From: Pirellulales bacterium
Lineage (GTDB): Bacteria; Planctomycetota; Planctomycetia; Pirellulales; PALSA-1355
DNA length: 49,477 nt
Assembly (NCBI GenBank): GCA_022844125.1
Contig: JALHMI010000014.1
Coordinates: forward strand, 195,298 to 244,774
Reading direction: 5' to 3'
Shown here: positions 15,784-45,864 of the stretch, one piece after another
Layout: each line of letters starts with the position of its first letter
Numbering within the stretch: the first letter of the stretch is position 1
Program-made: the position numbers and the translations under genes
Notes under the pieces: generated by a model
The model's input: the letters and a program-made list of their open reading frames with translations, nothing else
Database searches by the model: none
What the model was told of the DNA's origin: nothing

Positions 15784-15865
15784 GTTAGTCAGGATTGGCA
15801 AAGTATGACAAAATTTGACAATGGCCATTGGGGCGCGTATCGTAGTTGTTGTAGGAGGATTACTT

Positions 15866-16138
15866 ATGAGCCAAAACGAAACCATGAACATCGCTTTGCC
15901 GGACGCGATGAAGCAGTTCGTCCGTGAGCAAGTCGAGTCCGGCGGTTACAGCACGGCCAGCGAATACGTCCGCGAGTTGATCCGCGCCGATCAACGTGCC
16001 AAGGCTCGGCAGCGTTTGGATGCATTGCTGCTGGAGGGACTCGAAAGCGGACCGGCGACGCCAATCACAAAGCAGGACTGGGACGACTTGCGCCAACACT
16101 TTGAGGAGCGCCTCAAGAAAAATGGCCGCAAGAAGTGA
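15866..16138 (+). CDS. ParD-like antitoxin
   Basis: The 90-residue protein has an N-terminal ribbon-helix-helix-like part (MNIALPDAMKQFVREQVESG followed by YSTASEYVRELIRADQ), typical of ParD/CopG antitoxins, and a charged C-terminal tail that would wrap the toxin. The ATG at 15866 is preceded by AGGAGG. The toxin gene overlaps its end by four bases (GTGA), the usual arrangement. The RHH part normally also represses the operon promoter. No clear operator palindrome was identified in the short space after the eno terminator. Confidence 0.88.
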   Translation: MSQNETMNIALPDAMKQFVREQVESGGYSTASEYVRELIRADQRAKARQRLDALLLEGLESGPATPITKQDWDDLRQHFEERLKKNGRKK

Positions 16139-16455
16139 ATTCCCTACCTGCTCGCAAAACACCGCAGGCTTGGGCCGACATGTATGAACAGGTCGACTAC
16201 TTTGCCGACCATCAACCGGACCTGGGCAGAAAGTTCATGCAGGAGGTCGAGGCCAATATCGAACTCCTCTCCAAGAGTCCATTTCTCGGTTCCAGTTGCA
16301 TCGGTATGTCTGGCAAGGCTTCCGATTTGCGATACTGGACAATGGCGGCATTTCCGAACCATGTTATCTTTTACCGCACCGAACCAGAGCAGTTGACTGT
16401 GGTGCGAATCCTACACAGCAGCCGCAACTTGGATATCCTGTTCGACGCTAGTTGA
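16135..16455 (+). CDS. ParE-like toxin
   Basis: The 106-residue protein matches the RelE/ParE fold: an N-terminal helix (TPQAWADMYEQVDYFADHQPDLGRKF is the region around residues 9-34), a second helix, then FLGSSC, LRYWTMAAFPNHVIFYR near residues 64-81 and a closing VVRILHSSRNLDILF. ParE toxins usually poison DNA gyrase; RelE relatives cut mRNA. The start is a GTG that overlaps the antitoxin stop, implying coupled translation. A later ATG at 16180 would cut into the first helix. The frame is intact, unlike the second module near 43.4 kb. Confidence 0.87.
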   Translation: MNSLPARKTPQAWADMYEQVDYFADHQPDLGRKFMQEVEANIELLSKSPFLGSSCIGMSGKASDLRYWTMAAFPNHVIFYRTEPEQLTVVRILHSSRNLDILFDAS

Positions 16456-41568: not shown

Positions 41569-43302
41569 ATGAGCAGTCCAATCGATCGCGGCGACGCCGC
41601 GCCTTCGTCCCCGGCCGACCCGACCGAACCAAAACAATCGGCCGCCCAACAAATGTCCGGGGTGAGCGGTTCTTCCACGAGCGAGACCGCGCAGGGCGTT
41701 GAGTCAGGCGGTGAAGAGACGCGTCGCAAGGGCCCCTCGATCCGAATCGGCACGCAGCGCTACGGTGTGAAGCCGCCGCTGGCGGTACCGCGCCCGCTGA
41801 ATGCGCCCGCACCCGTCGCCAAGCCGGAGCTGGAACCGAAAGAAGCTCAGCCGAAGTCGCCGCTGCCCCAAGCCGCGGCTGCCGCAGCGACTGACGAAGC
41901 TTCGGCCACGCAGCCTGCTGATGTCGAAACGCCAGCGCCTGCCGCTGAAGCCGCGGACGCTCCGCAGCAAACCGCTCCGCAGCCGGCCGCTGGCGAAGCA
42001 CCGCCGCGCAAGCAGTCCCAGAATCAAGGCGGCGGAATTCCCATGCTGCCCCCCACGCGCGATCGCGTGGCCGTGCCCAGCGTGCGGGCCGGCTTGTCCG
42101 CGGAACTCGAACTCGAGTATCTCGAAGCGCTCGGCGGGCAGTCGATCGACCAGGTCATCACCGAAGAATCCAAAGGCACGCCCAAGGAACTGGAGCAGGA
42201 CTCGCGTCATCGCGGCCGGGTGATCGCCGTGCATCGCGACAACGTGTTCGTCGATCTCGGCAGTCGGCAGCAGGGCGTCGTGGGACTGAAGAACTTTGCC
42301 GAACCGCCGGAAGTCGGCGCGATGCTCGACGTCGCGGTTGCCAGGTTTGACGCGGCGGAAGGGCTCTACGAGCTCACGCTACCCGGCGGTGCCGTTTCAG
42401 TCGGCGACTGGTCGGAAGTCAACGAGGGCATGGTCGTCGAGGCCCGCGTCACCGGTCACAACAAGGGTGGCCTGGAGTGCGAGGTTAGCCAGCTTCGCGG
42501 GTTCATTCCGGCGAGCCAGGTTTCGATGTATCGCGTCGAGGATCTTTCGCAGTTCGTCGGCGAGAAGTTTGCCTGCGTTGTTACCGAGGCGAATCCCGAG
42601 AAGCGGAACCTGGTGCTCAGCCGCCGGGCCGTGCTCGAACGTGAGAAAGCCGCCGCGAAGGAAAGCATGCTGGCGACGCTCGAAGTGGGCAAAACTTTCG
42701 AGGGCACCGTTCGCAGCCTGCAGAATTTCGGCGCATTCGTCGATCTGGGCGGCGTCGACGGCCTGGTGCACATCAGCCAGTTGAGCTGGGACCGGCTCAA
42801 GCACGCGGACGAGGTCCTGCAAATCGGCCAGAAGATCAAGGTCAAGATTCTCAAGATCGATCCGCAGACCGGCAAGATTGGCCTGGGGTTCCGCGACCTG
42901 TCGGAGAATCCCTGGGAGAATGTGGCTCGCGACTTCCCGGCGCGCAGCACGGTGAAGGGCAAGGTCTCGCGCGTCACTGAGTTTGGAGCGTTCGTGCGGC
43001 TGGCTCCGGGCGTCGAGGGGCTCGTGCACATCTCGGAGCTGTCGCACAAGCGCGTGTTCCGAGTGACGGACGTGCTCGCCGAAGGCCAGGAAGTCGACGT
43101 GATGGTGCTCTCGGTCGATGCGGAGCAGCAGCGGATCAGCCTCTCGACCAAGGCGCTCGAAGCGAGAGCCACTCCGGCCAAGCAAGAGGTCGAGGAACCC
43201 GAGCCGGAGACTCCACCCACGCCGCGCAAAGAGCGGAAGGTTCCGCTGAAGGGCGGCACCGGCGGCCCATCGACGGGCGAGAAGTTCGGCTTGAAGTGGT
43301 AG
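41569..43302 (+). CDS. Four-S1-domain RNA-binding protein (ribosomal protein S1-like)
   Basis: The 577-residue protein has a disordered Ala/Pro/Gln-rich N-terminus (about 1-165), then four S1 OB-fold repeats: about 210-275 ([19 protein letters not shown]), 283-350 ([17 protein letters not shown]), 372-445 ([19 protein letters not shown] with GLVHISQLS) and 458-530 ([17 protein letters not shown] with GLVHISELS). A charged tail follows. It should bind RNA, either as S1 helping mRNA loading on ribosomes or as an S1-like accessory protein. Classical S1 has six repeats, so rpsA is not assigned with certainty. It appears monocistronic. Confidence 0.9.
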
Positions 43303-43427
43303 GACGACGGAATGGCGACTCGATGAGCCTCGCCTCACTCCTCCCCGCCCGATGTGCTTCCCTTGGCGGGCGCTGCGGCGGATGAGCCGAGCGACGAAGC
43401 GGAGTAAGGCGGCGCGATTGGCGAGTG

Positions 43428-43734
43428 CTAGCGGCGTCGCATCCAATAGTTGGGTCTACGACGACCGTGCGCTACGGCAACAATAACAACCGCTTCGTCG
43501 ACGAGCCTGAAGACTACGAGGTAGGAAAAGGATGGCAGAAGTGCGCGACGGTACTCGCGATTCGATAACTAAATTCTCAACTCTTGCGAAGCTTCGAGGA
43601 CGCTGCTCAATGGCGCTGAAAGCAGCGGATACTTCATCCAAGAATCGGTCACCCAGTCCCGGTGATTGCTGCGTCAGGTACTCGTACGCCGCGTCAAGCT
43701 CTGCCTTAGCCGCCTCTAGAACCTCCAGCATCAC
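43428..43734 (-). pseudogene. ParE/RelE-like toxin gene with a frameshift
   Basis: From the ATG at 43734 the frame reads MMLEVLEAAKAELDAAYEYL onward, a clear ParE/RelE N-terminal half up to ENLVIES. It then becomes Ser/Arg/Cys-rich and stops at 43456. In the next frame the missing half is intact: EYRRALLPSFSYLVVFRL, then VIVAVAHGRRRPNYW, with a stop at 43428-43430. The full stretch is 307 bases, one more than a multiple of three. The join must lie within about 43555-43570, because the second frame has a stop just before. Removing one base would give a normal protein of about 101 residues. It is either a true mutation or a sequencing error. Confidence 0.85.
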
Positions 43735-44031
43735 GAATTGCCTTTTCGATCAGCCTGCCTCTGCCGCAATGCTGAAATCACTTCGGATGCCGTGTAAACT
43801 GTTGCAGTTCCGAGCTCGTACTCGGCCATGCGACGGTCGAGCTCCTTTATCAGCTCGTCGCTGATTTCAGGTTCCTGCGCGGCCAAACTTTCTTCGAGTG
43901 CCGCGATGACCACGATGCGGTCTTCGGGAGTCAACAACAGCGCTTGCTGCAGGACTAAATCACGATCTGACAGTTCGAGGCCGTCTTCAGCGGCAGGGGA
44001 ATGGTTTCGACTCCTTGCATGAGTTAGCCAT
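43731..44031 (-). pseudogene. Addiction-module antitoxin gene with a probable frameshift
   Basis: The readable frame (LLTPEDRIVVIAALEESLA to the stop at 43731) matches small addiction-module antitoxins that pair with ParE/RelE toxins. The only start inside this frame is TTG at 43937, which falls within the conserved part. Family-like sequence (DGLELSDRDLVLQQAL) continues upstream in the same frame without a start. An ATG at 44031 lies one base out of frame. Deleting one C from the CCCC run at 43996-43999 joins it: MANSCKESKPFP followed by AAEDGLELSDRD. The toxin gene overlaps its end by four bases. The gene is therefore broken, miscalled, or starts at TTG as a 68-residue form. Confidence 0.7.
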
Positions 44032-44055
44032 CCTCACGCTGATTCCGACGCTTGT

Positions 44056-45864
44056 TTACTCCTCCCCGCCGGACGTCCGGCCCTTCGCTGGATCAAACTC
44101 CGAAAGAGCCGGCACCAGCATGGCCGCGGTCGCAAAACCGTAGGTGAAGGCGGTGACCAGAAACACGCTGAGCGTGTACTGCAGGAGGAAGCTGGTAATG
44201 GCCCAGAATGTGGCGATGGGCGCAAGCACCGAGGCGATGCCGATGGCCACCGAAGGATTGCGCGAGCCGAGCGCGGCGTACAGGCCCACGCCGCCGCCGA
44301 GCATAAACGCCAGGAACGGCTGGATCTGCACGTGGAACGAACCGCTGAATGCGATCATCATCCGCATGCAGGTGGCGATGCCAATGAACAGGAAGAACAC
44401 CGTGCCCAGGCTGACGCCGATCGCGGTGCGCGAATTGCCATAGCTCATGCCCGAGTGCAGGCCGAGGACCGCGGCAAAGGCGACCATCACCAAGAGCCCG
44501 CCGACCAGGTATACCAGGTTCTCGGTGCCAACTGCGCCGGCGAACCACAAGTACACACACAGGGCCAACGGCAACAGCACCATCTCCTTGGTGTTGTAGA
44601 GCGCCCCGCCCAGTTTGCCGAACACGAACTCGCGTGCCGAGAGATCCGTCACCAACAACAGATCGAGCGCCTTGATGTCGCGCTCGGTGGTCACCGCCGT
44701 GACTGCCTGAGCGTTGATCAGCACCAGGCTCAGCACGAACAGCGGCACAAGCAGTAGCGCCGCGCTGAGCGTCGAGAGGCCGCTCTCCGAATGCAGCCCG
44801 AGATAAAGTGCCGCGGCTGCCAAACCAACCAACACCAGGTACCCGATACGGATTGCGAGCACTTTGCGGCCGTAGGCCCAGGTGGCCATTTCGCGCCACA
44901 GGATCGGGTTGTCCCACACCTGGCGTGCTCGGCCGCCGGAGGAGTGCACGTCGCGCGCGGTCAACCGGCGCGCCGCGGCCGCCGATTCCTCGGTCATCCC
45001 CCAAATGCTTTCGGCCTCTTCGGCTTCGGCCGTGCGGGGGCGGACTTCGCGCGAGGGATTCCAGATCCGCACCCGCCAGATTGCGATGCCGTTGAGCACG
45101 ACCGTCAGCAGGCCGGCGAGCACGAGAAATGCATTCACCGCATTCCCCACCAAGGGCAGCGCATTCTGAGATGCCACCAGCGGCCGGGTTGCCATGAGCA
45201 CCGACTGCCAGGGGCTGATTGCCGCGGCCCAGGTTTCGGTCGGAACGCCAAACCATTCGGTCCCCAGCACGCCAAGCGACACAGCCTCGCCAAGTGCCAG
45301 CCAAAACACCAGCGCCAGCACCGTCAGTGCCAGGGTCTGAAATGTCTTCTCGCGCCACAGCGCCAACAGCGAACCGATGCTCCCTGCCACGAGCGCCGCC
45401 GCCAAGGTCGCGCCGAACACCCGGGCGATCTGCGCGAACGAGACACCGCCCAGCAGCGTGGTGAGCATGAACAGCGGCAATGCCGCCGCCAACAATACCA
45501 GCACGCCCAGCATGCTGGCCAGCAGCTTACCCAGCACGAGTTCACTGTTACTGAGGTTCGTTAGCAGCAGCAGGACGAGCGTGCGCTTGTCTTTCTCCTG
45601 TGTCACGGCGCTTGCGGCCAGCAGTGCCGAGAAGAACAGCGCCAGCGCCAATTGCAGCGGGCTGAGAATCTGAAACAGCATGGCGCCGAACCGGGCCATG
45701 TCCCCCACGTTGCGAATCACCTGGGTTCCGGCCAGGAGCAGCCACGCCGTGCAAACCAGCACGAGCAGTCCGGCGACGTAGGCAGCGCGAGCAACGTACA
45801 GCCGCGGACGGCGCGGCGTGGTAACAATTTCGCGAGTAAAGACGGGACCGATAAACAAGGGCAA
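44056..45864 (-). CDS. ABC-2-type permease without adjacent ATPase
   Basis: The 602-residue protein has about twelve hydrophobic segments in two blocks separated by a hydrophilic loop (about 265-325, with SIWGMTEESAAAARRLTARD). It begins MPLFIGPVFTREIVTTPRRP and has the AVTQEKDKRTLVLLLLTNLS motif, repeated in the second half as AVTTERDIKALDLLLVTDLS. Both resemble the coupling region of ABC-2 membrane proteins. The internal duplication suggests a fused dimer of permease halves. No ATPase is adjacent, so its partner must be encoded elsewhere. Confidence 0.8.
   Translation of the reverse strand: MPLFIGPVFTREIVTTPRRPRLYVARAAYVAGLLVLVCTAWLLLAGTQVIRNVGDMARFGAMLFQILSPLQLALALFFSALLAASAVTQEKDKRTLVLLLLTNLSNSELVLGKLLASMLGVLVLLAAALPLFMLTTLLGGVSFAQIARVFGATLAAALVAGSIGSLLALWREKTFQTLALTVLALVFWLALGEAVSLGVLGTEWFGVPTETWAAAISPWQSVLMATRPLVASQNALPLVGNAVNAFLVLAGLLTVVLNGIAIWRVRIWNPSREVRPRTAEAEEAESIWGMTEESAAAARRLTARDVHSSGGRARQVWDNPILWREMATWAYGRKVLAIRIGYLVLVGLAAAALYLGLHSESGLSTLSAALLLVPLFVLSLVLINAQAVTAVTTERDIKALDLLLVTDLSAREFVFGKLGGALYNTKEMVLLPLALCVYLWFAGAVGTENLVYLVGGLLVMVAFAAVLGLHSGMSYGNSRTAIGVSLGTVFFLFIGIATCMRMMIAFSGSFHVQIQPFLAFMLGGGVGLYAALGSRNPSVAIGIASVLAPIATFWAITSFLLQYTLSVFLVTAFTYGFATAAMLVPALSEFDPAKGRTSGGEE

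Follow-up and report, generated by a model that had tools for sequence, protein, structure and literature searches.

On the minus strand of the window (the whole stretch of 49,477 nucleotides that was analyzed, positions 195298-244774 of contig C14 in a 6.44 Mb genome of 27 contigs) lies a two-gene operon, which profile matches in both genes identify as a toxin-antitoxin system, in agreement with the original prediction, and more precisely as one of type II. The upstream gene encodes an antitoxin of the PF09720/TIGR02574 family (Unstab_antitox) and the downstream gene a ParE/RelE-fold toxin (PF05016), which is split between two frames (Table 1). The TGA of the antitoxin and the GTG of the toxin overlap as GTGA, and in most of the toxin-bearing relatives the toxin start also lies within the antitoxin stop. 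The PF05016 halves begin in this overlap, so that a toxin gene directly adjoins the antitoxin gene downstream.

Table 1. Positions of the toxin-antitoxin operon and neighboring features within the window
Feature	Position	Strand	Remarks
S1-domain protein gene	41569-43302	+	One flank of the operon
34-nt imperfect direct repeat (79%), left copy	43337-43370		Flanks the toxin-antitoxin pair
Toxin as a whole	43428-43734	-	PF05016 (ParE/RelE-fold); split over two frames
Toxin, C-terminal half	43428-43556	-	Other frame; 42 codons and TAG; PF05016 56-88, relatives' profile 57-100
92-residue ORF in the sequence as it stands	43456-43734	-	N-terminal toxin half followed by out-of-frame residues (ORF translation)
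Toxin, N-terminal half	43558-43734	-	Starts at the GTG overlapping the antitoxin TGA; PF05016 3-48, relatives' profile 2-59
Antitoxin	43731-43973	-	PF09720/TIGR02574; 80 codons and stop, first codon CTG (Pfam, TIGR02574, 12-relative alignment, start survey)
Shorter antitoxin ORF from TTG	43731-43937	-	Without the first 12 residues of the family; Pfam domain 2-54 of 54
ATG proposed upstream	44029-44031	-	Start of a 14-codon ORF that lies outside the N-terminus of the family; not taken as the antitoxin start
ABC-2 permease gene	44056-45864	-	Other flank of the operon
34-nt imperfect direct repeat (79%), right copy	44058-44091		Inside the ABC permease gene, at its 3' end

The G+C content of the locus was 55-58%, compared with 61-67% in the flanks. 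In three family relatives (G001, G002 and G003), the S1 and ABC-permease genes that flank the operon here were found on separate contigs, and in G001 and G002 the S1 gene was followed by other genes. The operon is probably an acquired chromosomal type II toxin-antitoxin system. No promoter was found in a sigma-70 scan over 43300-44200. We rejected the 34-nt repeat as the end of a mobile element or a dispersed repeat, since no further good copy turned up when the genome of the same organism was searched with the left flank (best match besides itself, E 0.066) and the right copy codes for the last residues of the permease; translated manually from the minus strand, the left copy would code for a similar tail ending in TSGGEE.

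Some additional features of the surroundings were observed. In the S1-domain protein, Pro, Ala and Glu are abundant throughout a long N-terminal region, and the best matches to this protein in the three family relatives show 63-65% identity. After the S1-protein gene of G001 (L027:3882-4583, plus strand), a small ORF without a Pfam match precedes a PIN-domain gene (PF01850, E 2.9e-8); the two are perhaps a VapBC-like pair, and the region after the S1-protein gene is perhaps a favored place for the insertion of toxin-antitoxin pairs. A second pair with both frames whole is present in the window itself (15851-16455, plus strand), with a ParD-family antitoxin (TIGR02606, E 1e-19) and a PF05016 toxin (E 1.7e-10).

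Reading frames of the two genes

The antitoxin passed the curated cut-offs of both family profiles: PF09720 was matched over positions 2-54 of 54 with 44.9 bits (E 1.2e-11, cut-off 23.3; query three codons longer than 43731-43973) and TIGR02574 with 35.6 bits (E 6.6e-9, cut-off 31.9). The shorter ORF from TTG matched PF09720 with an E value of 5.6e-12. Both the size and the N-terminal motif of the protein resembled those of its relatives, and its frame is open from beyond the N-terminus of the family through to the stop. For the antitoxin profile, no solved structure was found at E 0.01. The position of the family start is occupied not by a canonical start codon but by CTG (43971-43973), and neither ATG, GTG nor TTG occurs from -10 to +7 of this position.

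In an alignment with 12 hand-picked relatives, from which L023 (the same site as L074, without canonical start), L020 (starting at TTG, with its frame disrupted downstream) and more distant loci were excluded, each first Met corresponded to the residue coded here by CTG or to the one before it. We also searched with the antitoxin profile in two overlapping genome sets, one from the order (396 genomes) and one from the class (397 genomes), scoring being confined to the top candidates of each genome. Every match listed with 70 bits or more was kept, which gave 35 loci including this one (L079); these are the best-scoring matches and not a random sample, and counts made from them ignore relatedness. 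L055 and L104 apparently represent a single locus from two collections, and only L104 was counted. ATG (29 loci) or GTG (3 loci) was found within -8 to +1 codons of the family start in 32 of the 35. The start was the codon equivalent to CTG or the one before it in 29 of the 34 other relatives, and it lay five codons upstream of that position in L097-L099; in L147, the first 14 antitoxin positions were unmatched. Only this locus and L074 lacked a canonical start, L074 being a second case of the same kind: its antitoxin (ending at 1749, plus strand) reads AGG ATT at the place where its same-genus relative L069 has ATG ATT, and no recognizable toxin was found beside it.

Of the 35 loci, 20 have a GGAG or GAGG motif within 20 nt upstream of the start; such a motif is absent here, where the nearest AAGGAG (44011-44016) lies 37 nt before the CTG. 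This absence lends weak support to a damaged antitoxin start, the pattern among the loci being too uneven for proof. As judged from its sequence, the antitoxin gene has a whole frame and no canonical start codon. Bacteria can use CTG as a start codon, so that some expression of the antitoxin is possible; in this gene, translation from CTG is probably weak or nil.

The original prediction had placed a single-base insertion in each gene, with deletion of one base linking the true antitoxin start, an ATG at 44031, to the conserved frame. The arithmetic is right in that this ATG exists and lies in a different frame, closed by a stop after 14 codons, but as an antitoxin start it would stand outside the family N-terminus. 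The leader joined on from it had no match in the 12 aligned relatives, the canonical starts of 32 of the 35 loci cluster near the CTG position, and the conserved antitoxin frame needs no change to be open along the full length of the family. On the N-termini of the relatives we therefore rejected a frameshift in the antitoxin, and insertions in both genes are very improbable. Similarly, the antitoxin ORF with a TTG start that had been pointed out does exist but begins 12 codons inside the family N-terminus. A missing start codon had been read as a frameshift, an annotation trap that is corrected here.

The predicted frame change in the toxin, with the C-terminal half in the other frame, was borne out by matches of the two halves to neighboring parts of one profile. 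In the Pfam search, PF05016 positions 3-48 were matched by the frame 43456-43734 (E 4.7e-4) and positions 56-88 by the frame 43431-43568 (E 1.1e-3), both on the minus strand; the halves scored 21.1 and 19.9 bits, each below the cut-off of 23, and no single frame covered the whole domain above it. When a profile made from nine intact relatives (102 positions) was used, the N-terminal half scored 50.3 bits and the C-terminal half 60.0 bits, and homology extended along the whole domain (positions 2-59 and 57-100); a chance match of both halves is excluded by these sequence comparisons. Identity to the toxin of L014 was 62% for the N-terminal and 54% for the C-terminal half. The halves kept 24 of the 26 positions that are invariant in eight relatives, the two altered ones being Leu to Val and Leu to Met. 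The only lesion in the toxin as sequenced falls in the variable linker that joins the halves, and the toxin shows no sign of further decay. That the event is recent, as had been proposed, is plausible in view of the 24 conserved positions, in a comparison whose listed genomes include none of the same genus.

The nearest solved structure by sequence, found with the relatives' toxin profile, was Toxin ParE2 (8c26, E 1.4e-6). Gene order and overlap are the same as in the intact pairs of Blastopirellula marina DSM 3645 (L052) and a Planctomicrobium MAG (L050), whose toxins share 56% and 53% identity, respectively, with the C-terminal half found here. In both of these pairs, however, the toxin is continuous and the antitoxin starts from ATG.

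Lesions in related loci

The toxins beside the 35 antitoxins were whole in 17 loci, full-length but cut once in 8, truncated in 1 (L073) and not found in 9. It should be noted that L108, which has a TGA near toxin position 4 and a GTG at position 5, was counted as whole; otherwise there would be 16 whole and 9 cut toxins. The eight cuts lie at different places and comprise four frame changes (L076, L077, L104 and the present locus) and four in-frame stops (TAA in L081 and L111, TGA in L102 and TAG in L113). Since in-frame stops are not indels, indel error alone cannot explain the picture in the family, although it could explain this locus.

Such a sequencing or assembly error in the toxin, with a functional operon whose antitoxin is made from CTG, is rather unlikely. 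A single indel in a draft assembly, the preserved GTGA overlap and the 24 retained invariant positions would all be consistent with it. However, none of 40 other ORFs chosen from the window looked split (29 with a Pfam match, some of them short, and 11 without), the site of the frame change is not a long homopolymer, comparable lesions, among them in-frame stops with each of the three stop codons, are present in relatives, and the antitoxin start is odd as well. To a lesser degree, the absence of internal stops from the 10 PF05016 matches listed in the same genome also argues against an error, one of these matches covering only positions 34-88 and a split toxin of the present kind falling below the cut-off of that search.

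The frame changes in three other members, of which those of L076 and L104 are near the same linker, might instead suggest that a full toxin is produced by programmed ribosomal frameshifting. We rejected this explanation, which is extremely improbable: a shared slippery sequence was not seen, the frame shifts by +1 at this locus as against -1 (or +2) in L076, L077 and L104 (determined by hand), the sites differ among the four loci, other relatives have plain stops, and the toxin is in one continuous frame in 17 of the 35 loci.

The toxin was cut, truncated or missing in 18 of the 35 loci, and the antitoxin match was whole in one frame in 16 of these. The exceptions were L109, with a TAG inside the antitoxin match, and L147, whose antitoxin is unmatched at its start. 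More distant antitoxins with internal stops were also found among the matches listed (for example, G052:C567 and G440:C15). Because the antitoxin search favors loci with a good antitoxin, a reciprocal search was carried out with the toxin profile over the 397 genomes of the class. Thirty loci were classified, which are the best-scoring of many more listed matches and not a random sample, and the counts again ignore relatedness. The toxin was whole in 24 of them and interrupted in 6 (L120, L137, L139, L142, L143 and L145); the antitoxin matched most of the profile within a single frame in 28, was split in 1 (L137) and was partially matched in 1 (L144, only from position 28, with the frame open). 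L129, which is among the 24 with a whole toxin, is identical with L108 of the first set, and L120, L139 and L142 are identical with L081, L111 and L102, respectively. Pooled, the two sets comprise 51 separate loci, of which 14 occur in both; in 11 of the 51, a full-length toxin is interrupted.

L137 showed the only antitoxin break among the 30 toxin-anchored loci. Its antitoxin extends over two frames (L137:1296-1824, plus strand), and its toxin is intact as far as profile position 93 of 102, the frame change beyond that position resting on a piece of 8.8 bits. This locus is a possible exception to the rule that the toxin dies first, with what may be an almost complete toxin next to a damaged antitoxin. 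The toxin profile is longer than the antitoxin profile (102 and 83 positions, respectively), so part of the difference between six interrupted toxins and one interrupted antitoxin reflects target size; the difference is suggestive and not significant on its own.

Proposed history of the pair

Taken together, we consider it likely (probability about 0.7) that the operon is in an early stage of decay that began with the toxin. Decay had also been named in the original prediction as a possible cause and is the likeliest one, sequencing error at this one site being rather unlikely. Decay is favored by lesions that recur in relatives, an unusual antitoxin start, a reduced G+C content and a neighborhood that differs in relatives. 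In the ancestral pair, as may be assumed from other ParE/RelE-fold pairs, the antitoxin would have been translated first, the toxin would have been coupled to it translationally through the overlapping GTGA, and the antitoxin would have bound and neutralized the toxin. If the sequence is right, the frame change in the variable linker would prevent synthesis of a full toxin, and with a dead toxin the antitoxin would no longer be needed. Its frame is still open, and with CTG as the start it may now be translated weakly or not at all. Loss of the toxin first and of the antitoxin later is the expected order, because the reverse order should poison the cell.

Degraded toxin-antitoxin loci and orphan antitoxins are known from bacteria, as described in a report on Klebsiella (PMC7192599) and in another report (PMC7354431). 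With the degraded loci of Klebsiella (PMC7192599), the present locus shares an antitoxin that stays behind, unpaired from a working toxin, whereas the toxin remnant here is still full length. The same two reports and the 16 whole antitoxin matches among the 18 loci with a defective or missing toxin would fit with selection for the antitoxin after toxin loss, either as an orphan antidote (anti-addiction) or as a regulator. This is improbable for the present locus: the missing canonical start points in the opposite way, and the antitoxin-anchored set favors antitoxins that are still recognizable. We regard as equally doubtful a more general scenario in which this antitoxin family has, in Planctomycetes, repeatedly been uncoupled from its toxin by independent single lesions and persists as a free-standing antidote to related toxins of mobile elements, the antitoxin of the present locus being made from CTG.

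Thus, the locus is most likely an ordinary decaying type II toxin-antitoxin system, in which the toxin most likely went first. No title on the TIGR02574/PF09720 antitoxin family in Planctomycetes was seen in the literature searches. What is new is the member itself and the small count of lesions, degraded toxin-antitoxin pairs and orphan antitoxins having already been well described. As one more decaying pair, the single locus carries little weight. The survey, on the other hand, represents a small natural experiment, in which single lesions of several kinds strike the toxin and, with L137 as a possible exception, the antitoxin frame usually outlasts it, as the logic of addiction predicts.
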